NCBI GenBank assembly: GCA_022728415.1
Contig: JAIJJM010000051.1
Location: 1-9,688 of the forward strand
Length of the DNA: 9,688 nt
Source: Collinsella sp.
Lineage (GTDB): Bacteria > Actinomycetota > Coriobacteriia > Coriobacteriales > Coriobacteriaceae
Reading direction: 5' to 3'
Both the position numbers and the translations under genes were made by a program. The notes below the pieces were generated by a model that had not been told where the DNA came from, did not search any database, and was given only the letters and a program-made list of their open reading frames with translations. Shown piece after piece: positions 63-9,436 of the stretch; positions within the stretch are counted from its first letter, which is position 1, and every line of letters starts with the position of its first letter.

Positions 63-98
63 AGCCTGTGTAATCTCCCTTACACGGGCTTATTTTTT
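63..98 (+). terminator. CyaR intrinsic terminator
   Basis: The stem AGCCTGTGTAA (63-73) pairs with TTACACGGGCT (80-90) around the loop TCTCCC, and is followed by TATTTTTT (91-98). Most of this terminator is also the phage attachment core, so integration keeps the small RNA 3' end complete. Confidence 0.93.
72..98. other. P2-type attachment core (attR junction)
   Basis: Read on the - strand, positions 98 to 72 match the 27-bp P2 attachment core as I remember it (begins AAAAAATAAGCCCGTG and ends GGGAGATT). Sequence to the left is cyaR and the chromosome; sequence to the right leads into ogr. In the P2 map ogr is the last gene before attP, so this end is attR, the host/prophage boundary opposite the integrase gene. 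The other junction and int lie outside the window. Strand exchange occurs inside the core, so the exact crossover cannot be placed. Confidence 0.9.
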
Positions 99-139
99 AC
101 GCGTAATACGATGAAATAAAAGGATTTATTTCTGGTCAC

Positions 140-157
140 GTCCACACATTGACCACA
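140..157. promoter_or_regulatory. Candidate P2 integrase arm-type sites
   Basis: Two direct repeats, GTCCACA (140-146) and GACCACA (151-157), start 11 bp apart. Their complements TGTGGAC and TGTGGTC resemble the TGTGGACA-like arm-site motif recalled for P2 integrase. They lie 40-60 bp from the core on the phage side, where a P' arm is expected. Assignment rests on motif similarity and position only. Confidence 0.5.
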
Positions 158-162
158 TCGAC

Positions 163-190
163 AAAAAAGCCCCTCGACTGAGGGGCTTTC
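163..190 (-). terminator. Intrinsic terminator downstream of ogr
   Basis: A GC-rich hairpin, AAGCCCCTC (167-175) with GAGGGGCTT (180-188) and the loop GACT, is followed on the - strand by TTTTTT (168-163). It ends ogr and F-operon transcription before it runs antisense into cyaR. On the + strand the hairpin is followed by only a short T run, so it might also work weakly in that direction. Confidence 0.85.
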
Positions 191-199
191 TGTTTGTAA

Positions 200-418
200 T
201 TACATCCACATAATTTGCTGCCCTGACGGCAACGGGTGCGGCCTTACGGCGTGGACTTCTCCCGGCTTAACGATGTATCGCTGTACCGACTCATAAGTGA
301 TGAACGTGGCGCTGCAATTCACGTTCTGGCACTGGTGATAACGCTCTTTTGTCGTGTCAGTGATATAGCGACTTGTACGCGCATGTGCGGCATGCTGGCA
401 TAAAGGACAATGAAACAT
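200..418 (-). CDS. ogr: Late transcription activator Ogr (zinc finger)
   Basis: This 72-aa protein activates P2 late transcription by binding upstream of the late promoters and contacting the RNA polymerase alpha subunit. It has the hallmark zinc-binding pattern of the Ogr/Delta family, CX2C-X22-CX4C, formed by Cys4, Cys7, Cys30 and Cys35. A longer reading frame opens at 481, but the start at 418 is preferred for three reasons. It gives the usual 72-residue length with MFHCPLC at the N terminus. It has a ribosome site, AGAGGTG, at the right distance. The upstream in-frame ATGs fall at or before the predicted promoter. The gene is last before attR and is followed by a strong terminator. It can be reached by read-through from the F operon and probably from its own promoter at 453-481. 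Confidence 0.95.
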   Translation of the reverse strand: MFHCPLCQHAAHARTSRYITDTTKERYHQCQNVNCSATFITYESVQRYIVKPGEVHAVRPHPLPSGQQIMWM

Positions 419-452
419 CGCGAGCACCTCTTCCGGTTTTGTTGATGGTGCC

Positions 453-481
453 ATTTTAGTTAATTTATCCTTATAAAACAA
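453..481 (-). promoter_or_regulatory. Predicted sigma70 promoter of ogr
   Basis: On the - strand a TTGTTT box (481-476) and a TAAAAT box (458-453) are separated by exactly 17 bp of AT-rich sequence, predicting a start near 446. P2 ogr is known to have its own promoter in addition to read-through from the F operon. The position between the D stop and the ogr start fits. Confidence 0.55.
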
Positions 482-499
482 ACAGATAAATAATAAACA

Positions 500-1663
500 T
501 CACTCATCATCTTCTGTTTCGTACTCCACATCAGAAAGCCTGACCTCAAGCTCTAAGGACGTCGTGAAGCCGCTATTATTCAGAAAATGTGTCACCTTAG
601 TGATTGTCCAGTCCTGCTCGTCTATGACGCGCTTAAAGCCTGACACTTTAACCGGTGTTTCCGTGTAAATATCTGCCCGACCGGTAGCCAGGCTGATGGA
701 GAACTCCGCGACGCCCCGTTGCAGTTTGTCCCACTTTGCCTGAGCGGCGCGCATGGCCTGCGCTTTTGTGGCATATACCGTAGTCAGGGCAAAAACGTTG
801 TCAGCTTCACCGGCCATGTATTCACCTTCGCGCGCTTCCGGTACTTTTGGCGCTTTCTTCTGCGTGACCGGTTTCGCTTTCGGGTGCTCCAGTGCGCGCA
901 GGTGTTTTTCTTTCTTTTTGCGTTTCAGTTTTACCTTCTGCTTTTGAGGCTTCGGGTCTTTGGTGTGTAACCACTTTGCCGTTACACCGGTGTAGGCTCC
1001 ACGGTCAGCAATCGCAAAATGGTGACGGTCGCCATCGCTGCGGGTGATGGTAATCTGCGGGATTTTTTTACCGCTGGCCGTCACCCCCTGCCCCGCTTTG
1101 AGAAACAGCAGTTTTCCCATTTTTACCGACACCTCACCGCCGTTGCGTTCTGCAAGACGGGTCAGGAATTTCGCATCGGACTCCTGCGACTGGTCGATGT
1201 GCGGGATTTTAATTCCGGCCAGTGACGGAGCGATACTGGCTTCCAGCTTGTTACGGGAGGCTATCGCCTCAACAATCGCACCGAGCGTGGTGTCATGCCA
1301 GGAGCCTTCACGGCGGGAATTGAGCGTCCCGCGAAAATCTGCACTCCGGGCGCGGATGGTAACCACATCCGGCGCGCCCCGGTGTTCAACCTCATCAACG
1401 GTAAATTTCCCTTTGCATACCAGGGCAAAACCTTTCCAGCCGATATACACCGTCAGGACAGCGCCACGAATCGGTAGCTCGACCTGCCCGTCGGCATCGT
1501 TCAGTTCAATATCAAGCTGGTCAGCCTCAAAGCCCCGGTTATCCGTCAGGGTCATGCTCATCAGACGGTCGCTGATATTGCCGGTAATATCCCTGCTGTC
1601 GAGCATCAGCATGTAATCCGGCGTCAGCGTACTGCCTGCATCAAATGTCAGCGCATCCAGCAT
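500..1663 (-). CDS. D: Baseplate hub protein gpD
   Basis: At 387 aa this has the same length as P2 gpD, the late-control D family. It forms the trimeric hub under the tail tube, functionally like T4 gp27, and connects the tube to the spike. The N-terminal half carries recognisable family sequence (SMTLTDNRGFEADQLDIEL, residues 36-54). A very lysine-rich linker follows at about residues 234-273, then the C-terminal domain. The start codon overlaps the stop of U by one base (TAATG at 1665-1661), and no strong ribosome site precedes it, so translation is probably coupled to U. It is the last gene of the F operon. No truncation is seen. Confidence 0.95.
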   Translation of the reverse strand: MLDALTFDAGSTLTPDYMLMLDSRDITGNISDRLMSMTLTDNRGFEADQLDIELNDADGQVELPIRGAVLTVYIGWKGFALVCKGKFTVDEVEHRGAPDVVTIRARSADFRGTLNSRREGSWHDTTLGAIVEAIASRNKLEASIAPSLAGIKIPHIDQSQESDAKFLTRLAERNGGEVSVKMGKLLFLKAGQGVTASGKKIPQITITRSDGDRHHFAIADRGAYTGVTAKWLHTKDPKPQKQKVKLKRKKKEKHLRALEHPKAKPVTQKKAPKVPEAREGEYMAGEADNVFALTTVYATKAQAMRAAQAKWDKLQRGVAEFSISLATGRADIYTETPVKVSGFKRVIDEQDWTITKVTHFLNNSGFTTSLELEVRLSDVEYETEDDE

Positions 1664-2142
1664 TATCCCGCCCCCGTCATACCCGTGAATTTAGTCGCCA
1701 TACTGCCAGCCTTACCGATGAGCGATTCCGCCTGTTTACCGATATCGCCATAAAGCGCGGCCAGTGACTCATCAACGCGGGTGAGCGACAGCGTAAAATC
1801 AATTTTCCGTGGTGTGCCGTCTGCAAAGAAAATACTCCCTGTTTCACTCACCTTGCTGATGACATACATGCCGTAAATCATGCCGGTGCCATCCAGCAAC
1901 GGCCACGCCCGGCCTTCATCTGCCATCAGCCTGAGCGTGGTCATCGTCAGCTTGCCGCCGGTCAGTTCGGGATAAAGCACACCGGCCAGCGTCATGTTTT
2001 CCTCGCCAACGCCGAGAAACTGGTAGGCATCCCGTTTACCGATACGGGAATTTGACGGCCAGCGATAATCTGATTCACGCTGCATGGTCTGGTGTGGCAG
2101 CGTCTGGCGCATAAAAACAAACATACCTAACGCGAGCATCAT
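1663..2142 (-). CDS. U: Tail completion protein gpU
   Basis: This 159-aa protein matches P2 gpU in length and sequence character. In P2, gpU acts at the head-proximal end of the tail, capping the polymerised tube and sheath so that the tail can join the head. It starts with two consecutive ATGs (2142 and 2139). A near-perfect ribosome site, AAGGAGGTGA, lies just upstream and overlaps the stop codon of T (TAA at 2159-2157), so reinitiation after T is likely. The C terminus is glycine-rich and overlaps the D start by one base. It is part of the FI-FII-E-T-U-D operon and is intact. Confidence 0.94.
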   Translation of the reverse strand: MMLALGMFVFMRQTLPHQTMQRESDYRWPSNSRIGKRDAYQFLGVGEENMTLAGVLYPELTGGKLTMTTLRLMADEGRAWPLLDGTGMIYGMYVISKVSETGSIFFADGTPRKIDFTLSLTRVDESLAALYGDIGKQAESLIGKAGSMATKFTGMTGAG

Positions 2143-2156
2143 TTTTCGTCACCTCC

Positions 2157-4604
2157 TTAACCGTCATGCATCATGCTGGCACGGGCACGCGCACGTTTAT
2201 CCCGCTCGTATTTTTCGAGCGCATCCTGTAACTGGCGGTCAAGCTGTGTCCCCGGTGCAGTACCACCCGTCAGGCTGATGTGATATTCGTTTTTACTCTG
2301 GTCCACATAAGAGCGGCCAGCCGGTGCCGTGACCGGCTGATAAGCCTGATAGCCTGCATAAGAGCTGGTCGCCGGAATATAACCACCGCTGCCATACGTG
2401 GCGGCTTGAGTTCTGGCGGCGGTCTGGTCAAGTGTGTCTGACTCTTTGTTGATAACACCGAGTTTTTCCAGTACCCAGTCAATACCGCTGCGCAGTTTGT
2501 TGAACGCATTAAGCGGCAGCATCAGCGCGTCAGCCAGTGCCTGCCCGAACATGACGCCCGTATCACGGCAACGGTTCAGGGTGTCCTGGGTGGCTTTGAC
2601 CGGGGCAATCAGGTTTTTAAACCACTGCCACGCGGCCTGTAACTTTTCGCCCAGCCAGTCAAACACCGGCTTAAGTGGCGTGAACAGTTCCCCCACTGGC
2701 GCAAATGCCACTTTCAGCCCTTCAACCACACCGCCAAAGAATGCGCTGACAGGCTCCCAGTATTTACGGATAAGCAACGCCCCGGCGACAATGGCAGCCA
2801 CCACGGCCACAACCGGCCAGCTAATCACCCCGATAGCAGTCATAACGGCACTGCCAACCGTCGTGAAGATTGCACCCATTGCGCCTGCTGCCGCGATGAT
2901 GGCATTGATGCCGGTGATAACCGGCCAGGCTACAAGACCAATTGCACCGATGATGCCAATAAGCGCCAGCGCGCCACCGGCAATGATGCCAATGGTTGAC
3001 GCCAGTGATTTGTTTTTCTGGATCCAGCCGTCGAGTTTTAACACATACTTTGTGGCCGTCTGTGTGAGCTTACGCAGTGCGCCTTCCTGCTGGTCAAACA
3101 GGTCTGTCCCCACCGCCTCATAAGCGGACTGAAACTCTTTAAAGTCACCGCCGAGGTTGTCCTGCATGATATTTACCAGCTCGGCGGTCTTCCCGTCTGA
3201 GGCTTTAAACGCAGCGGTCAGTTTGTCCAGCTTTCCGGTTGAGGCGGCAGTCATCAGCACGGCGGCGGCTGAGCTGGCCTCCTCCCCGAAAATAGTTTTC
3301 ATGTATTCAGCCTGCTGGGCAGTACCGAGCCGGTTTTTCTCAAAACTGGCCTGCATTTCTTTCAGAATGGTAAATATTGGCCGGGTGTTTCCCTTGCTGT
3401 CTGAGGTTTTCACTCCAAGCTCTTTGAGTGCATCCCATGCTTTTCCCGTCGGTGCCTGCAGGCGGCTTAACACGGCACGGCTTCCCGTCCCCGCCATTGA
3501 GCCTGTGATTTTTGCATCATGCAGCGCCCCGACCATTGCGGCGGTTTCTTCAATGCTGACACCGGCATTTTTTGCCACAGGTGCGGCATAGGTCAGCGCA
3601 TCGCTCATGCCGTCAAAATCGGCGGCGGTTTTGTTCATCGTCATGGAGAGAACATCCCCGATATGAGCGACCTTATCGTTTGAAAGCTGAAAGGCGGATT
3701 TCATCCCCATCAGCAGGGCGGCGTTTTCTTCCATCGTGCGGCGGTTCGCCAGCGCCATATTCAGCGTGACCGGCGTTGCCGCCTGAATGGCATCAACATC
3801 CCCACCCGCTTTCGCGATGATTATCTGTGCACCGGCCGCATCATCCGCCGAAGCGGCGGTATTGTCGCCGAGCTGGCGCGCCTGTTTGCGTAGTGCGGTC
3901 ATTTCGGCGGAGTCTTTTGCCACTCCGAGCACGGCCTGCAATTCTGAGTTTTTCTGCGCAAACTCATAACCGGGCATCAGCAACTTAACTCCGGCCATCG
4001 TTCCCGCCGCCGCAATCCCCACACCGGCAGCGCCCACCGAGGCCATATTTCCGGCCAGCTCCTTTCCGGCCTGATAACGCTGTTTGACTGCGTTAAGTTT
4101 TGCCTGTTGCGCACTGACACGCGCCAGCGCGTCGCGCTGACGGTTAAGCTGTGCGGTGGTTTCACTGATACGGTTTTTCAGTCCCTGCTCATCATGTGCA
4201 AGATTGCGGGTATTAATTCCCACAGCGGCCAGTTCCCGCTGCTGGCGTTTAACGGAATCCGTCAGGCGGTTATATTTCGCCTGTAAGTCCTCCGCCGCAC
4301 GCTTTGCGGATTCCAGCACTTTCGCCTGAGCACGGGTCGGACGTTCGGTGTTTTTAAACTGTGTGGCAAGGGCTTCTGCTTCCTGCCGAGCCTTTTCAAG
4401 TGCATGACCAGTCACGGCGAGCTGTGCACTGGTCTTGCGGAATCCCTCAATACGGGATGCCTGACCGTTCAGCTCGCGCAGTGATTTTTGTGTTTCCCGG
4501 ATATCCCCCGACAGCGACTTGCTCGCTGTGCGGATGGATTTAAACGGGCGGGATGCCTGGTCAACAGCCCTGAGCAATACCTGTAATTTTACATTGTTAC
4601 TCAT
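2157..4604 (-). CDS. T: Tail tape measure protein gpT
   Basis: At 815 aa this equals P2 gpT, the tape measure whose length sets tail length and which is thought to leave the tail during DNA injection. Residues 1 to about 180 are strongly helical and charged, with coiled-coil character. Residues about 215-450 correspond to the conserved phage tail tape-measure core. A long, very hydrophobic stretch (about 534-612) contains several potential membrane-inserting helices separated by glycine, as is usual for tape measures. The C terminus is charged (KYERDKRARARASMMHDG). The ATG at 4604 overlaps the end of the frameshifted E' reading frame by 8 bases and has only a weak ribosome site (GCGGAA), so it is probably coupled to E' translation. 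The neighbours E and E' are its expected chaperones. Confidence 0.95.
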   Translation of the reverse strand: MSNNVKLQVLLRAVDQASRPFKSIRTASKSLSGDIRETQKSLRELNGQASRIEGFRKTSAQLAVTGHALEKARQEAEALATQFKNTERPTRAQAKVLESAKRAAEDLQAKYNRLTDSVKRQQRELAAVGINTRNLAHDEQGLKNRISETTAQLNRQRDALARVSAQQAKLNAVKQRYQAGKELAGNMASVGAAGVGIAAAGTMAGVKLLMPGYEFAQKNSELQAVLGVAKDSAEMTALRKQARQLGDNTAASADDAAGAQIIIAKAGGDVDAIQAATPVTLNMALANRRTMEENAALLMGMKSAFQLSNDKVAHIGDVLSMTMNKTAADFDGMSDALTYAAPVAKNAGVSIEETAAMVGALHDAKITGSMAGTGSRAVLSRLQAPTGKAWDALKELGVKTSDSKGNTRPIFTILKEMQASFEKNRLGTAQQAEYMKTIFGEEASSAAAVLMTAASTGKLDKLTAAFKASDGKTAELVNIMQDNLGGDFKEFQSAYEAVGTDLFDQQEGALRKLTQTATKYVLKLDGWIQKNKSLASTIGIIAGGALALIGIIGAIGLVAWPVITGINAIIAAAGAMGAIFTTVGSAVMTAIGVISWPVVAVVAAIVAGALLIRKYWEPVSAFFGGVVEGLKVAFAPVGELFTPLKPVFDWLGEKLQAAWQWFKNLIAPVKATQDTLNRCRDTGVMFGQALADALMLPLNAFNKLRSGIDWVLEKLGVINKESDTLDQTAARTQAATYGSGGYIPATSSYAGYQAYQPVTAPAGRSYVDQSKNEYHISLTGGTAPGTQLDRQLQDALEKYERDKRARARASMMHDG

Positions 4605-5024
4605 TCGTGTTTCCGCTTCGCCGGAGCGCCTTTTCGCGCCATGTGATGAGTTCGGTCAGGCTCATGGGATACAGTTCTGATGGCGGCCAGTGAAATATCA
4701 CTGCCACATCCGCCATCAGGTCATCGACCGAGAGATTTTTCGGAAACGTCACTGCACCGAGTTCGGCGACAAAAAACCGACCACCTTACCGGCCAGCGCC
4801 ACAAGGTCAGGCAGCTCCAGCGCGGCGACCTCCTGCTCAGTCAGCATCGGTGCCGTCATGCGCGGCAGCACTTTAATCAGTGCATCGACTTCGGAGTTTG
4901 CGACCGCAGCCAGACTGACACCGCGCAGCGTCCCGGCATTGGGTTTCATCAGCGTGACCTGTTCGATAACCTGCTCACCACGCTTGACCGGATTGTCCAG
5001 GGTAATCACATTTTCTTTGTTCAT
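4597..5024 (-). CDS. E': gpE+E' tape-measure chaperone (-1 frameshift product)
   Basis: A programmed -1 frameshift at TTTTTTG (4776-4770) fuses the first 85 residues of gpE to a 57-residue extension. I translated the extension by hand: it begins VAELGAVTFPKNLSVDDLMA, contains WPPSELYPMSLTELITWRE, and ends SGNTNE at a TAA (4599-4597). The total of 142 aa equals the P2 E+E' product. The same arrangement exists in lambda (G-T) and most long-tailed phages; the extension is thought to contact tube protein while the E part binds the tape measure. The extension has no start codon of its own at the shift point and overlaps the start of T by 8 bases. The coordinates cover both parts; the reading frame changes at 4770. 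Confidence 0.93.
4749..5024 (-). CDS. E: Tape-measure chaperone gpE
   Basis: This 91-aa protein corresponds to P2 gpE, a tail assembly protein equivalent to lambda gpG. It is made in excess of the frameshifted form and is thought to help the tape measure fold and recruit tube subunits. The start at 5024 gives MNKENVITLDNPVKRGE and is preceded by AAGTGAG as a modest ribosome site. Close to its 3' end, codons 84-85 (TTT TTG) form the slippery heptamer TTTTTTG (4776-4770), where some ribosomes move to the -1 frame. The unshifted frame ends six codons later at TGA. The gene is separated from FII by a hairpin-containing gap. Confidence 0.94.
   Translation of the reverse strand: MNKENVITLDNPVKRGEQVIEQVTLMKPNAGTLRGVSLAAVANSEVDALIKVLPRMTAPMLTEQEVAALELPDLVALAGKVVGFLSPNSVQ
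4770..4776 (-). promoter_or_regulatory. Slippery heptamer for -1 ribosomal frameshift
   Basis: TTTTTTG, read as GGT TTT TTG in the E frame, is the slippery site described for P2 E/E'. Tandem slippage gives TTT TTT followed by GTC in the -1 frame. I see no strong stem immediately downstream: only CCGA/TCGG with a 2-nt loop. Any stimulating structure is therefore weak or more distant. Confidence 0.9.
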
Positions 5025-5052
5025 GGTTTTCTCACTTCTGAATCAGGGTTAA

Positions 5053-5073
5053 CCGGTCAGCCTGGCTGACCGG
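5053..5073 (-). other. Intercistronic hairpin between FII and E
   Basis: CCGGTCAG (5053-5060) is a perfect 8-bp inverted repeat with CTGACCGG (5066-5073) around CCTGG. It lies 7 bp after the FII stop. On the - strand it is followed by TTAACC rather than a U tract, so it does not look like a complete intrinsic terminator. A role in mRNA stability or in lowering E relative to tube protein is an inference. Confidence 0.7.
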
Positions 5074-5080
5074 ATGAAAA

Positions 5081-5599
5081 TCACAGGCCGATATTGCGGC
5101 GGTGTTGCTCCAGCCGGTCGACGCCGTTCACCTTCTCAATCATGTTGATGGTGTCGATTTCGACCAGCTCCTTACCGTCCATCGTCAGCCGGAAATAGGT
5201 GCAGACCACGGAGATTTTCGACTCAGTGTCTTCTCCCTGTTTACCCTCGCCGGTGTCGATTTCTTTCTGACGGCCACGCATGACCACTTCGACGGCCACC
5301 GTTTCGCCGGTATCGTCACGCTGGTAAGAGCCTGCAAAACGAATCGGCACAGCATCCACACCGGTTGCGGCGTAAAGCTCCCAGATAACCGAATCCGGGA
5401 AGCCCCCGAGCGACCACTCCATTGACAGCGCATCGTCATCAAGGCCGAGGTCTACCGGTGCGCTGCCGTTCATCCCCGCACCGCGATAGTTTTCGAGCTT
5501 ACGGGTCAGTTTTGGCAGCGTGACGGACTTTGCAACGCCCTGATAGCTGTAGCCGTTCAGAAAGACGTTCATTAACTTGAGTTTGCGCGGCATTGCCAT
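5081..5599 (-). CDS. FII: Major tail tube protein gpFII
   Basis: This 172-aa protein has the length and sequence of P2 gpFII (MAMPRKLKLMNVFLNGYSYQ at the N terminus). It polymerises as stacked rings to form the inner tube of the contractile tail, inside the FI sheath. The ATG at 5599 has a good ribosome site (AAGGAG, 8 nt away) overlapping the end of FI. A second ATG two codons later (5593) would fit the spacing less well. The gene is second in the F operon, 12 bp after FI, as expected for a high-level structural protein, and is followed by a hairpin before E. It shows no defects. Confidence 0.96.
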   Translation of the reverse strand: MAMPRKLKLMNVFLNGYSYQGVAKSVTLPKLTRKLENYRGAGMNGSAPVDLGLDDDALSMEWSLGGFPDSVIWELYAATGVDAVPIRFAGSYQRDDTGETVAVEVVMRGRQKEIDTGEGKQGEDTESKISVVCTYFRLTMDGKELVEIDTINMIEKVNGVDRLEQHRRNIGL

Positions 5600-5611
5600 C
5601 GGTCAGGCTCC

Positions 5612-6802
5612 TTAATTGCTGTTAACCGAGGTGACCAGATTTGCCAGGTATTTATCGGTAATACGCTGGCGCAGGGTCAGGTTTTCAAGAGGAGGCACCG
5701 GTGTATAGTCGTAGTCGATATACAGTTTTCCGGCCTTGAGGGTTTCCGCATCGTTGGATTCTTCGCTGAACCAGCAGGTCGCATCCACGATATAGCCGTT
5801 TGTTTTCAGCTCACGGAATTTGGCATTGATGCCGTCAACGATGTCGCGAATCAGCGTTGCGGTGATGGGCTTGTCCACCGCCCACATGTGCGCCTCAGCC
5901 ATCGTGTCGGCCAGCACCTGCGCGGTGCGGGTGTAGTTTTCAAAGAGGAACAGCGGGTCATCAGAGCAGGTACGGTTACCCCAGAATCGGAAACCGTCAC
6001 GGCGAATCAGCGTTGTGACACCTGACTCGTTCAACAGGTCAGCATCGGTGCCGGACTCCTGCAAATCCCAGAATACAGAGGCACTGATGCCGGTAACACC
6101 GTTTACCCCGACGTTGGACAGCGTTTTATGCCAGCCCTGCTCCTGGTCGATTTTAGCGCGCAGGCCCAGCGCACGGGCGGTGGCATACGCGGTGGCGGTG
6201 GTACTGGCGACCGTATCCCATGCGAGGAAATCCGGCCAGATGACCATCAGCTCACGCTGGCTGAAATTCTGGCGGTAGGCTTTCACCTCGGAAATGGTCT
6301 TACAGCCCCATGCGCTGATATATCCGAAAGCGCGCAGCTTCTGACAGACGGATGCCAGTGCAACAGCCACCTCTTTGGTGTCCAGCCCCGGCACACCGAG
6401 AATACGCGGTTTAACACCGGTTACCGACTCCGCCGCCAGCAGGGCTTTTAGTCCGGTATACTGACCGTTTTCGTCGGTGGTGCCGATGATATTGGAAACG
6501 GTCTGCGCGAGTTTCGTTTCCTCGTCATCACCGGTGCCGTCTTCCACGCGCACGACAACGGTGACCGGTTTTGACTGGTCGGCGATGGCCTGCAACGATG
6601 CCGCCAGCGTGCCTTTTTTACCGGCCTTTGCAATTGCGCTCTGCACATTGGTAATCAGCACCGGTTTATTGAGGGGGAAGGTTTCCGCATCCGCATCGCT
6701 GGCCGTGCAGACCATGCCGACAATGGCCGTGGATACGGTGGAAATGACGCGGGTGCCGTCGTTAATCTCCAGCACCTGCACGCCGTGATGATAGTCACTC
6801 AT
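5612..6802 (-). CDS. FI: Tail sheath protein gpFI
   Basis: At 396 aa this matches P2 gpFI, the contractile sheath subunit. Sheath rings surround the FII tube and shorten on infection to drive the tube through the cell envelope. The N terminus is MSDYHHGVQVLEINDGTR; the C terminus includes the conserved-looking YTPVPPLENLTLRQRITDKY. The start at 6802 is supported by GGAG eight bases upstream and by the unusually clear length match. It is the first gene of the F operon, preceded by a leader of about 75 nt and an Ogr-dependent late promoter. The gene is complete. Confidence 0.96.
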   Translation of the reverse strand: MSDYHHGVQVLEINDGTRVISTVSTAIVGMVCTASDADAETFPLNKPVLITNVQSAIAKAGKKGTLAASLQAIADQSKPVTVVVRVEDGTGDDEETKLAQTVSNIIGTTDENGQYTGLKALLAAESVTGVKPRILGVPGLDTKEVAVALASVCQKLRAFGYISAWGCKTISEVKAYRQNFSQRELMVIWPDFLAWDTVASTTATAYATARALGLRAKIDQEQGWHKTLSNVGVNGVTGISASVFWDLQESGTDADLLNESGVTTLIRRDGFRFWGNRTCSDDPLFLFENYTRTAQVLADTMAEAHMWAVDKPITATLIRDIVDGINAKFRELKTNGYIVDATCWFSEESNDAETLKAGKLYIDYDYTPVPPLENLTLRQRITDKYLANLVTSVNSN

Positions 6803-6880
6803 CCGTTTAACTCCGTGGTTAATGGGTGCAACTATTTTCCGTTGGGTAGTACATGAGACGCTATTTGACCTGGCTGGTCA
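6803..6880 (-). other. F-operon mRNA leader with 5' hairpin
   Basis: This is the predicted untranslated leader between the late promoter and FI. At its 5' end is a perfect 5-bp inverted repeat, TGACC (6866-6870) with GGTCA (6876-6880) around a 5-nt loop, which would sit at or next to the first transcribed base. The ribosome site GGAG is at 6814-6811. The transcription start is inferred from the Ogr site, not measured. Confidence 0.5.
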
Positions 6881-6884
6881 GGGG

Positions 6885-6943
6885 ATGAAACAACAGATAA
6901 AGAAAAGGCGGGAAATCAGCCCGCCTGTCCTGATTTGTACACA
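6885..6943 (-). promoter_or_regulatory. Ogr-dependent late promoter PF
   Basis: On the - strand there is an exact TGT-N12-ACA dyad (6943-6926), the published form of the Ogr/Delta binding site, which is centred near -55 in P2 late promoters. That spacing places the start near 6879, with TTTCAT (6890-6885) as a plausible weak -10; TTATCT (6900-6895) is a second choice. No -35 box is seen, as usual for these activator-dependent promoters. It drives the FI-to-D operon. Confidence 0.82.
6899..6925 (-). terminator. Intrinsic terminator embedded in PF
   Basis: GGCGGG (6907-6912) pairs with CCCGCC (6920-6925) around a 7-nt loop, and the - strand continues with TTTTCTTT (6906-6899). This would stop transcripts arriving from H, G or the cargo gene. 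The hairpin begins at the base directly next to the Ogr dyad and occupies the spacer where a -35 element would be. Confidence 0.75.
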
Positions 6944-7244
6944 CTCATTTTCCGACTGACTATTTACATAGCCGAAACGCTATCAAATATGACAGTCTGC
7001 TTTTAGCTAAGAGCGGAAGTTGTCACGAAGTTACTCTCCCCTGAGTGCAAATCCCCCAAAGTCATTCGCAGATCAGTACCGAAAGGCGATCACTTTAACG
7101 CTCTGTATTGCGAGTGCTCAAATAAGGAGTGAGGCCATACCTACGTATTGAATCTGACGTTCTCACACACGTTGAGCCCCAGCTCAATAGCGGCAGACCG
7201 ACTGCTGAAAGAGCCGGTTAGCCAACTCAGCCCCTAGCACGTAA
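6944..7244. other. Non-coding stretch between PF and cargo terminators
   Basis: No convincing gene is seen in about 300 bp on either strand; short frames lack ribosome sites and family resemblance. It contains one hairpin element (6990-7022, listed separately) and a small perfect stem, TTGAGC (7172-7177) with GCTCAA (7182-7187). The rest has no structure I can support and may be debris from earlier cargo exchange at this locus. Confidence 0.6.
6990..7022 (+). repeat. Hairpin element A (left flank of cargo)
   Basis: The element begins TGACAGTCTGC and continues to GAGCGGAAGTTG. CTGCTTTT (6997-7004) can pair with AAGAGCGG (7009-7016), with two G-U pairs. Aligned without gaps to element B on the opposite strand (8852-8821), it matches at 23 of 32 positions, including TGACAGTC and GAGCGGA. 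Some differences exchange a G-U pair for a G-C pair. The two copies face inward around the cargo gene. Confidence 0.55.
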
Positions 7245-7273
7245 AACTGCCCTAGATTTACTGCAGGGCAGTT
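7241..7273 (-). terminator. Second tandem terminator after cargo gene
   Basis: A perfect 9-bp inverted repeat, AACTGCCCT (7245-7253) with AGGGCAGTT (7265-7273) and an 11-nt loop, continues as TTTTAC on the - strand. It lies just beyond the first terminator and backs it up. Confidence 0.7.
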
Positions 7274-7278
7274 AATGT

Positions 7279-7301
7279 AAAAGCCTCGCACTTGCGGAGG
7301 C
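7279..7301 (-). terminator. First tandem terminator after cargo gene
   Basis: On the - strand GCCTCCGC, loop AAGT and GCGAGGC form a stem with one bulged C (7301-7283), followed by TTTT (7282-7279). It begins 11 bp after the cargo stop codon. Two terminators in a row isolate the cargo gene from the tail operon. Confidence 0.8.
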
Positions 7302-7312
7302 AGTATTATAAT

Positions 7313-8614
7313 TCAAGCTTCATTCTTTAGTTTTTCAATGTGATTAACCTCATCATTGCTTGCTTTAGCTGCTGATTGGCCTTTCTTACTTATAATCCCT
7401 TTAACATAATTTACATTATCAATGGAGGCATCTAAGAATTTTTGAAACGACTTAGAATTAAGCATTTCTGTCCAAGGAGTAGTATGATCTTCATCTTTCA
7501 CAAAACGCAATGGAGCCTCTTCAAGTCGACTTAGCGCAGAATCAAATAAGCGTTTTTCGAACTCTCCATCTGATACCTTGCATGCCTCATTTTTGTATCC
7601 CTCATACGCTTTAGCCACAGAAGCTTTATAAGCATAATCCTCTGCGAGTTTGAAACGTTGATTAATTTGTTTTGTAGACATCCAAGCAAACCAAAGAGGG
7701 GCGCCTATGCTAAAAACAGATAATAGTAATTGAGTGAGTATTACTACCGCACTGGGATTTGGGTTATTCAAAACCCCAGAAAGAACTTTCAATCTTTCAT
7801 ATCCGACTAAACCACCAAGCCCCAAAGCAACTGCCAAACCGGCAACCCATAGTTGGATACTTCGGTTAAGCTTATCTGCTTTTATTTCAAATGCTCCTGC
7901 TAAGCCTTTCGATGTTGAAGCCCTAATAGCCTCTTCGCAAAGAGCCAGATACCGGGCAGCCTCTATATTTTTTTCTTGCAACTCATCAATAATTTTTTTT
8001 GCGGCTTCTTCTTGGGACTCTAAACTGAAATGAGTTTTAGATATCTTCTCCTTTAAATCAGATGCTTCTTTGTTGTATTCCTTTAATTCATTTAAGTCTA
8101 TAGGTATATTTTCTGCAGCTACATGAGCATCATTAATCGTTTTAACTTTACTCTCAAGAGCATCCATCTCAGGATCAATCTTGTTAATTCTCGCCTCCAT
8201 GCTTTTAATTTTTCTGCTTAAATTTCTAGGAAGTAAATTAGCATTATCCAACCGCTTCCATGTAAACGATTCATCCAAGAAATGGTCAACATATGCCAGT
8301 GTTAGCATATATGAAGATATAGCTCGTGCGGAGTTAACGCCTGAGAACTCTGGGACGTGAACTCTAATGAGTGTGTCAATTTTTTCAGGGAGAGATGAAT
8401 AAGCGGCAATTTCTTTTTCAGTTAGTTCAATATCACCATATGCTTTCAGCTTGTTAATAATGCAAATTATTTGGTCAATTAGGTCATCTGATGTTATTGC
8501 CGGAACACCAACTCCAAGAGTATTCGTCATCAACCCATCTTGGATGGTCAGACCTTCTATAGCCTTCTCAAGCCTCAAAAGTGCGTCATAAGTTCCCTTA
8601 AAGCCAGTATGCAT
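7313..8614 (-). CDS. Coiled-coil two-TM membrane protein, phage cargo
   Basis: I do not recognise a named family for this 433-aa protein. Residues 1 to about 130 are a soluble, mostly helical region. A long charged coiled coil follows (about 133-215). Two hydrophobic segments, about 252-272 and 288-312, are joined by a short loop (Asn-Pro-Asn-Pro, 284-287) and form a membrane hairpin. The C-terminal part (about 315-395, including AEDYAYKASVAKAYEGYK and EAPLRFV) looks like a compact conserved domain. With no N-terminal signal and two TM segments, both long regions probably face the cytoplasm. Base composition is clearly more AT-rich than the tail genes. The gene sits between G and FI, where P2 carries the unrelated T5-exclusion gene Z/fun, and has its own candidate promoter and tandem terminators. 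A lysogenic-conversion or anti-phage role is inferred from locus and architecture. The start at 8614 has only a weak GGA ribosome site. Confidence 0.85.
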   Translation of the reverse strand: MHTGFKGTYDALLRLEKAIEGLTIQDGLMTNTLGVGVPAITSDDLIDQIICIINKLKAYGDIELTEKEIAAYSSLPEKIDTLIRVHVPEFSGVNSARAISSYMLTLAYVDHFLDESFTWKRLDNANLLPRNLSRKIKSMEARINKIDPEMDALESKVKTINDAHVAAENIPIDLNELKEYNKEASDLKEKISKTHFSLESQEEAAKKIIDELQEKNIEAARYLALCEEAIRASTSKGLAGAFEIKADKLNRSIQLWVAGLAVALGLGGLVGYERLKVLSGVLNNPNPSAVVILTQLLLSVFSIGAPLWFAWMSTKQINQRFKLAEDYAYKASVAKAYEGYKNEACKVSDGEFEKRLFDSALSRLEEAPLRFVKDEDHTTPWTEMLNSKSFQKFLDASIDNVNYVKGIISKKGQSAAKASNDEVNHIEKLKNEA

Positions 8615-8640
8615 ATTTTATTCCATGAACTTAAGTGATG

Positions 8641-8646
8641 ATTATA
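8641..8646 (-). promoter_or_regulatory. Candidate -10 box of the cargo gene
   Basis: A consensus TATAAT lies on the - strand (8646-8641), predicting a start near 8634 and a leader of about 20 nt. No good -35 box is present 16-18 bp upstream (AAGCAG, AAAGCA or GAAAGC). The promoter would be weak or need an activator; the palindrome at 8678-8694 would centre near -52. Confidence 0.45.
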
Positions 8647-8677
8647 CAGGCTGCTTTGCAACCTGCTTTCGTTGTTA

Positions 8678-8713
8678 GTATATGTAGCATATACATAATT
8701 CTATAGCGTATAC
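8678..8713. promoter_or_regulatory. Palindrome and repeat upstream of cargo gene
   Basis: GTATATG (8678-8684), TAG and CATATAC (8688-8694) form a perfect 7-bp inverted repeat. A related copy, TAGCGTATAC (8704-8713), repeats TAGCATATAC (8685-8694) with one change, 19 bp away, about two helical turns. This spacing is typical of paired sites for a dimeric regulator. No known consensus (for example LexA CTG-N10-CAG) matches. Confidence 0.5.
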
Positions 8714-8765
8714 CTATCCATTTTACCCTTCGTTTTCACAGGAAGCCATATGATTAATGCCGCTT

Positions 8766-8787
8766 AAAAAGCCAGCAGTGTAGTGGC
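8766..8787 (-). terminator. Weak candidate terminator after G
   Basis: On the - strand GCCA (8787-8784) and TGGC (8774-8771) flank a 9-nt interval and are followed by TTTTT (8770-8766). A 4-bp stem is short, so this is at best a weak stop for the H-G transcript before the cargo promoter. Confidence 0.3.
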
Positions 8788-8820
8788 ATACGGATTTTGG
8801 CCACAGAAGCAGAAGTGTGG

Positions 8821-8874
8821 GATGTCCGCTCCTGGCACAGAGCGGACTGTCAGATTAGGCTTTACTCTGTGCCA
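8821..8874 (-). repeat. Hairpin element B with alternative stems
   Basis: Two perfect inverted repeats share bases. GTCCGCTC (8824-8831) pairs with GAGCGGAC (8840-8847). TGGCACAGAG (8833-8842) pairs with CTCTGTGCCA (8865-8874). They cannot form together, because GAG at 8840-8842 belongs to both. The element lies 35 bp after the G stop, in the H-G transcript and upstream of the cargo gene. It is related to element A at 6990-7022 in the opposite orientation. Confidence 0.6.
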
Positions 8875-8908
8875 TAGATATGTAAACTCCCACCAGAACT
8901 CATACAAC

Positions 8909-9436
8909 TTATTGCGGCATTTCTGGCCATTCAGGATTTGCAGTATCCACACGACTGACCAGAACGTTGTAGCGTTCCCATGCTTCCAGTCGGCTGCGTT
9001 CCTCATCTGTTGCCATATTCAGCCTGACAGCGCGCTCCAGCGGCAAAATCACGGATTCAGCATCTGCAAGAAGTCTGCCTTTCCGATTTTCTGCCTGCTG
9101 CTGCAATTCCTCTGCCGTATAAATTCGTTTAATCACAGCACCATCCTTAAACATCCATTTACCTGAGTCGTCAGCACGTCGGTTGGAGGTAATATCAGGA
9201 ACCTCAACAACGCTAAAACCTTCAGGATTAAGCGTTGAAGCATCTCTGGTGATAGCGACAATAATATTATTTTCATCGTAAACAATCTTTATTGTGTCTG
9301 GCTGAAAGTTCTTCACTTCCTCATACCAGTTTTTTCCGTCCTCAGAGTAAAGCCAGATAACTCCGTGTTTCTTTGTTAACTCATACTGTTCCAGTGTTTT
9401 AGCGTTACCCGCTTTTATGTTCTTTAAGTGCATCAT
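8909..9436 (-). CDS. G: Tail fibre assembly protein gpG
   Basis: At 175 aa this matches P2 gpG, a Tfa-type chaperone needed for folding or attaching the distal tail fibre. The family-typical C terminus is clear: [20 protein letters not shown] (about residues 150-169), followed by EWPEMPQ. A helical charged stretch precedes it ([20 protein letters not shown]). The start is a double ATG (9436, 9433) one base after the stop of H (TAA at 9440-9438), so translation is probably coupled to the fibre gene, as usual for fibre and chaperone pairs. No strong ribosome site is present. The gene is complete; downstream is the cargo region rather than FI. Confidence 0.92.

Follow-up and report, generated by a model that had tools for sequence, protein, structure and literature searches.

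A putative membrane protein carried as cargo in the fun(Z) slot of a P2-like prophage is a candidate anti-phage protein

A cargo segment between two P2 tail genes

The window (the whole stretch of 9,688 nucleotides that we analyzed) is the tail-side end of a P2-like prophage of E. coli and adjoins a host gene, the small RNA gene CyaR, which lies at 10-95, just outside the prophage. Inside the prophage, an open reading frame (ORF) with an ATG start encodes a protein of 433 amino acids. It lies between the genes for tail fibre assembly (P2 G) and the tail sheath (P2 FI), and all three are on the minus strand. The features of the locus are:

7024..8821, no strand: replaceable cargo segment, ~1.8 kb, from the similarity breakpoints of P2 and six prophages
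7313..8614, minus strand: gene for the 433-aa protein, PHROG_34659, with no function assigned in PHROG
8909..9436, minus strand: tail fibre assembly gene (P2 G), flanking (Caudo_TAP, 4.3e-36)
5612..6802, minus strand: tail sheath gene (P2 FI), flanking
7283..7301, minus strand: terminator-like hairpin 1 (fold versus shuffles)
7245..7273, minus strand: terminator-like hairpin 2 (fold versus shuffles)
8646..8694, minus strand: two inverted repeats in the leader, at 8646-8666 and 8678-8694 (whole leader z -1.7, weak)

By windows, the GC content is 0.36-0.43 over the 433-aa gene, as compared to 0.52-0.59 over the tail genes. The ORF, its GC content and the flanking matches bear out the original prediction that an AT-rich gene lies between G and FI.

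Phage P2 is 96.5% identical to positions 72-7023 of the window. Similarity to P2 is lost after 7023 and is back at 8824, and in P2 this gap is occupied by fun(Z). For six other P2-like prophages of E. coli (chosen from 20 listed matches among 979), the match to the window runs as far as 7007-7021 and starts again at 8822-8834. Because P2 and the six prophages match the window on both sides but not in between, the ~1.8 kb between the blocks of P2 backbone is, by these alignments, replaceable cargo at the position of fun(Z). The P2 record states that fun(Z) blocks T5, so the record and the alignment of the borders agree with the prediction that this is the slot of the T5-blocking Z/fun gene. In P2, fun(Z) is on the opposite strand to G and FI; the window gene shares their strand.

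The six comparison prophages carry five other types of cargo in this slot, mostly annotated as hypothetical. None of this cargo has detectable similarity to the window protein or to Fun, and the five cargo products that we scanned had no match in PADLOC or Pfam at E ≤ 0.001. In two of these prophages (L138 and L139) the slot holds one type of cargo protein, of 197 aa and with 94% identity between the copies; the copy from L138 matched nothing in Pfam or PADLOC at 0.001.

Vassallo 2022 (PMC9519451) reports that P2 has a second locus enriched in defence, the fun locus; of the 21 new systems in that study, four are at the A-Q slot (from replication gene A to portal gene Q) and three at the fun locus. 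In Rousset 2022 (PMC9122126), P2-hotspot systems were tested together with old and tin. In its location, a variable slot of a P2-like prophage, the window gene matches the defence cargo of such prophages, and this location in a P2 defence slot makes it a good anti-phage candidate.

The gene had also been credited with its own terminators. A scan of 6700-9000 for terminator patterns gave just one candidate, at 6906-6926, with 1.7 expected from shuffles, but two terminator-like hairpins come directly past the stop codon (7283-7301, z -2.3, and 7245-7273, z -3.1); both fold better than shuffled sequences and are followed by UUUU. The inverted repeats in the leader might, speculatively, be an operator or an attenuator.

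A protein family with a common core

The predicted features of the protein, in window coordinates, are:

8225..8614, minus strand: N-terminal domain, residues 1-130, four-helix bundle (AlphaFold; dN)
7865..8227, minus strand: coiled-coil helix, about residues 130-250, running into the first transmembrane helix
7799..7861, minus strand: transmembrane helix 1, about residues 252-272 (hydropathy)
7682..7756, minus strand: transmembrane helix 2, about residues 287-311 (hydropathy)
7445..7681, minus strand: conserved C-terminal region, residues 312-390 (block conservation)
7583..7642, minus strand: core motif EDYAYKASVAKAYEGYKNEA, residues 325-344 (invariant residues in 87 sequences)

AlphaFold confidently predicts a bundle of four helices for residues 1-130 alone (pLDDT 90.7, pTM 0.84). 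It then gives a single helix at 130-282, to which both the coiled coil and membrane helix 1 belong, and a helix at 289-347 that includes the second membrane helix; the tail that follows is weakly predicted, and the model is unreliable past residue 360. The layout in the original prediction (N-terminal helical domain, coiled coil, membrane hairpin and conserved C-terminal region) stands, with a small change: the pre-membrane helix in the model has about 120 residues (130-251), more than the estimate of about 80 for the coiled coil. Hydropathy gives hydrophobic windows at 252-273 and 285-314. Positive residues lie before the hairpin (K236, K245, K248, R251), after it (K315, R320, K322, K330) and in its loop (R274, K276). 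By the positive-inside rule, we infer that both ends of the protein are cytoplasmic.

The C-terminal region is conserved, as its appearance had suggested. The 20-residue blocks across 301-380 have mean conservation of 0.65-0.89, the top run of the protein, and in an alignment of 87 sequences (the window protein and 86 of 120 listed homologues), E325, D326, Y327, K330, A336, Y337, E338, G339, Y340, E343 and A344 are invariant. In four of four pairs, dN over residues 1-130 exceeded dN from residue 222 to the end (by 2.8, 3.7, 3.6 and 3.3 times). By these rates the N-terminal domain evolves fast and the C-terminal part slowly, which fits a modular split.

When 8000 candidate proteins were scored, 1069 were homologues at E ≤ 1e-5, and scans for loci gave 80 in genomes (kept from 106 relatives; one, L084, has no ORF of the family) and 47 in viral contigs. 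In 18 of 5426 E. coli genomes, a copy with ≥99% identity covers 80% or more of the gene, and part of the sheath-side flank is present in 979. Another 24 E. coli genomes have a partial gene at 60-80% DNA identity. The one of these that we examined is beside integrase remnants and a tRNA-Asn, outside of any P2 prophage, and the protein that it encodes has 55% identity across 420 residues. Relative to an Enterobacter copy that is 80% identical (L005), dN is 0.13 and synonymous sites are saturated. Given the 1069 homologues, the 18 near-identical copies and this low dN with saturated synonymous sites, the comparisons indicate that the ORF is a real gene and not a chance one. Seven of the 18 full-length E. 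coli copies (H5, H10-H13, H17 and H18) are annotated in two pieces, one with IS1 inside, so the gene is dispensable.

The profile search that had been proposed for this protein identified no family. The window protein matches no Pfam or NCBIfam family at its curated cut-off; among 120 listed close homologues, none has a precomputed Pfam domain; and in scans of 86 close and 16 remote relatives, the 25 families listed per scan were weak and mostly coiled-coil. PADLOC-DB 2.0.0, which predates newer anti-phage systems, gave the window protein only coiled-coil matches (DruC, 0.0013, residues 131-225; LmuB, 0.0066, residues 134-215). PF28159.1, an entry that is newer than the Pfam release we searched, is precomputed on three of the 120 remote relatives that were listed. 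Neither the libraries nor the open papers that we searched describe the protein, so the word undescribed, used of it at the outset, holds within that scope: the family is real and undescribed there, and the kind of cargo is already known.

Remote relatives were found by using the C-terminal domain as the query. Sixteen of them have the same C-terminal module (hhalign probability 100, E = 3e-39), but a profile of the N-terminal domain matched none of the 16 at E ≤ 10. Short relatives of ~260-290 aa, some of them named Haemophilus, keep the C-terminal core. Four of these (L150, L152, P0155 and P0177) are 265-286 aa long, and two are named Haemophilus influenzae; the sequences of L150 and L152 are without the N-terminal domain. 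(Alignment A2 holds 74 of 129 loci and the window protein, and alignment A7 holds 93 of 116 N-terminal stretches and the window protein.) Because the N-terminal profile misses the 16 remote relatives and the short relatives are without that part, the coiled coil, the hairpin and the C-terminal helix make up the core of the family, as judged from these sequences, and the N-terminal module is specific to a lineage.

Pairwise comparison to P2 Fun, Tin and Old did not indicate homology (E = 1.3, 11 and 0.30). Among 50,697 phage records (including P2), tblastn found only Providencia phage PSTCR8lys. DUF6161 (PF19658), a family with no assigned function, also has a coiled coil, two membrane helices and a conserved helix, with similar spacing by eye. 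A weak profile alignment pairs the helices that follow the second membrane helix, but key residues differ; hhalign probabilities were 12 and 13, neither of them significant, with reversed controls at 5.3 and 2, using a DUF6161 profile of six sequences (seven loci were tried and L170 gave no ORF). The Pfam profile for DUF6161 has no match in the window protein.

In SLATT proteins, the two membrane helices are the candidate effector. The SLATT families (PF18181, PF18186 and PF18160) have two membrane helices, as does the window protein, but the members we fetched are 167-288 aa and, by eye, lack a comparable long coiled coil. Against the A2 profile, probabilities were 5.7, 2.5 and 0.3 with SLATT profiles too thin to weigh against kinship (4, 2 and 1 sequences; the SLATT_4 locus L175 was left out), and the SLATT Pfam profiles have no match in the window protein. 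CorA has a GMN motif in the loop between its two transmembrane helices. We rejected CorA for the window protein: residues 273-287 have no GMN, and the Pfam score is 10.5 against a cut-off of 27.

For the N-terminal fold, the nearest known domains for comparison are the four-helix domains Rx-CC, NRG1 CC-R and MLKL. Plant Rx-CC and MLKL are among its best structural matches, with scores that generic helical bundles also reach. Pfam's SesA, which is related to HeLo, is weakly matched by four of the 87 sequences (best E = 0.0047). We found no significant match to a pore or toxin fold.

Distribution and neighbours of the homologues

The sampled homologues are patchily distributed across Pseudomonadota, Bacteroidota and one genome of Nitrospinota. 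Thirteen of 129 loci have the family's ORF in the A-Q slot, which in P2 holds tin and old; these are 12 of 47 viral-contig loci and one of 79 genome-contig loci. At two further loci Q is adjacent and the contig ends on the other side, and at two more, only Q or only A is within reach. The G-FI slot accounts for two of 129 loci, of the window's own type of prophage. One P2-like prophage (L131; NZ_CP083056.1, 149606-166877) is on a conjugative IncF-type plasmid of Klebsiella, with the homologue between the replication and portal genes.

Within 10 kb of the homologue, a P2 gene or a gene for an integrase, recombinase or transposase is present at 29 or more of the 79 genome-contig loci; in the other 50, our chosen seeds found no mobile-element gene. 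The Enterobacter copy is near ORFs that, by eye, are integrase-like, repressor-like and primase-like. A C-terminal profile hit 16 genomes among 295 in the order and 5 among 296 in the phylum Bacteroidota (both counts include the seed genome and remote relatives). We ran the possibility of core housekeeping genes as a check, and by these counts the family is patchy, not core. In a tree of 86 rows, made by a quick method and with long branches flagged, eight Bacteroidota rows lie among Pseudomonadota, and starred branches force at least two changes. (Rows were sequences of at least 380 aa among L005-L084, along with chosen phage, E. coli and remote rows.) This placement is compatible with transfer but is not proof of it.

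The survey of genomic neighbourhoods that had been proposed as a check gave a mixed answer. On the one hand, there are the A-Q slots and some defence-type neighbours: one homologue (L086) adjoins a KAP ATPase that was scored as PDC-S20, another (L102) adjoins an AAA ATPase that was scored as HEC-02A/PD-T4-4/Old-like, and a remote relative (L135) has an Abi family protein nearby. On the other hand, defence genes were not clearly enriched beside chromosomal homologues when, at 50 loci, we compared the three ORFs closest to the homologue with the three farthest from it (150 proteins each). There were 99 defence models matched near and 45 far, but one protein may match many models. Among the 25 models listed per set, the near ones include AbiU, Old, C3a187 and a type II methyltransferase, and the far ones include Tin, mads and type I specificity. 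By Pfam, near neighbours also include metabolic genes such as MFS transporters, aconitase and thiolase. Vassallo 2022 (PMC9519451) reports that prophage-associated homologues are typically near one or two defence genes and rarely more, so the lack of clear enrichment weighs less.

The AAA ATPase at L102:5691-7626 is overlapped at its end by an unnamed ORF of 203 aa, and the homologue there is in an A-Q slot. An ORF that is TIR-like by eye lies close to another homologue (L103:4588-5559); that contig also carries P2-like genes for capsid and terminase. In four A-Q slots, an unnamed protein with a hydrophobic start is encoded directly upstream of the homologue (L085:6818-7660, L092:6943-7737, L098:1591-2388 and L100:6972-7769). 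Neither of the two that we scanned, from L085 and L092, matched anything in Pfam or PADLOC at 0.001. This protein is possibly a partner or a second cargo.

A possible anti-phage role and the alternatives

We believe that the window protein probably has an anti-phage role: its family's presence in both P2 defence slots, its mobility, its patchiness and its striking neighbours, as judged from the genomes, all count for this. On the other side are the PADLOC matches that do not go beyond coiled coils, the defence models in both the near and the far sets, the metabolic neighbours, the 50 loci where our seeds found no mobile-element gene, the E. coli copies in pieces and the lack of a significant pore or toxin fold. 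If it has such a role, then we lean towards membrane damage as the mode. We infer a topology, a trigger, an assembly and membrane damage that would fit together as follows. The protein would have its anchor in the inner membrane, and both of its ends would be cytoplasmic. Its N-terminal four-helix domain, which is variable, and the coiled coil would hold the protein in an inactive state and would respond when a phage infects; the hairpin in the membrane, together with the near-invariant helix after it, would then rearrange or assemble and permeabilize the inner membrane, and the infected cell would be stopped before phage release. This whole reading, a prophage-carried single-gene protein that damages the inner membrane upon infection, is tentative, and we put it at somewhat less than an even chance. 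The original prediction had the coiled coil and the C-terminal domain sensing or signalling, but sensing by the C-terminal domain seems less likely: because the C-terminal part is the most conserved and the N-terminal domain varies, the N-terminal domain appears to be the better candidate.

If the protein is protective, then the membrane-acting single-gene defences gain a family that has over 1,000 members and no name in the libraries searched, and the copy of PADLOC that we used would miss it. A common C-terminal core with unlike N-termini would also allow a direct test of which part senses the phage and which part acts.

Alternatively, this could be a gene for lysogenic conversion or for the host membrane with no role in defence, for example one that acts in stress or as a scaffold and aids the lysogen or the stability of the prophage. 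The metabolic genes among the nearest chromosomal neighbours, the lack of clear local enrichment and the breadth of the family would all be expected, but the use of both P2 defence slots, the patchy and partly mobile spread and the fast evolution of the N-terminus would not, and we consider this unlikely, at perhaps one chance in a few. Slightly less likely again is superinfection exclusion without cell death, in which an inner-membrane protein stops certain phages during entry, at DNA passage or at early takeover. A membrane hairpin with a short loop would suit this, as would the replacement of fun(Z), which blocks T5 according to the P2 record. But most of the protein (about 250 and 120 residues) is predicted to be extramembrane and, from the positive-inside rule, cytoplasmic, and a block on the periplasmic side would have no need of this; also, homologues are found in chromosomal loci with no detected phage gene.

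It is improbable that the protein is half of a two-part system that needs an unlinked or occasional neighbour (the upstream membrane protein or an ATPase). The same unnamed protein is at -1 in four loci and KAP or AAA ATPases are beside two others, but the gene is alone in the window and the -1 protein clusters in only four of the loci compared. More speculative still, by analogy, is a widespread bacterial membrane suicide protein in which a bundle of the MLKL or plant CC-NLR type would be the sensor or executioner, joined through a coiled coil to a pore-forming hairpin. It would be the bacterial equivalent of the four-helix cell-death domain, carried by phages as cargo on a conserved two-TM effector core that has other N-termini in other lineages; we give this little credence. 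Finally, a structural or lysis protein of the phage is very improbable: the gene is between tail genes and, unlike fun(Z) in P2, on their strand, but our check found no significant match to a structural phage protein, its PHROG has no known function, it is far rarer in E. coli than the sheath-side flank (18 versus 979 genomes), and homologues are at the other P2 locus and in chromosomes.
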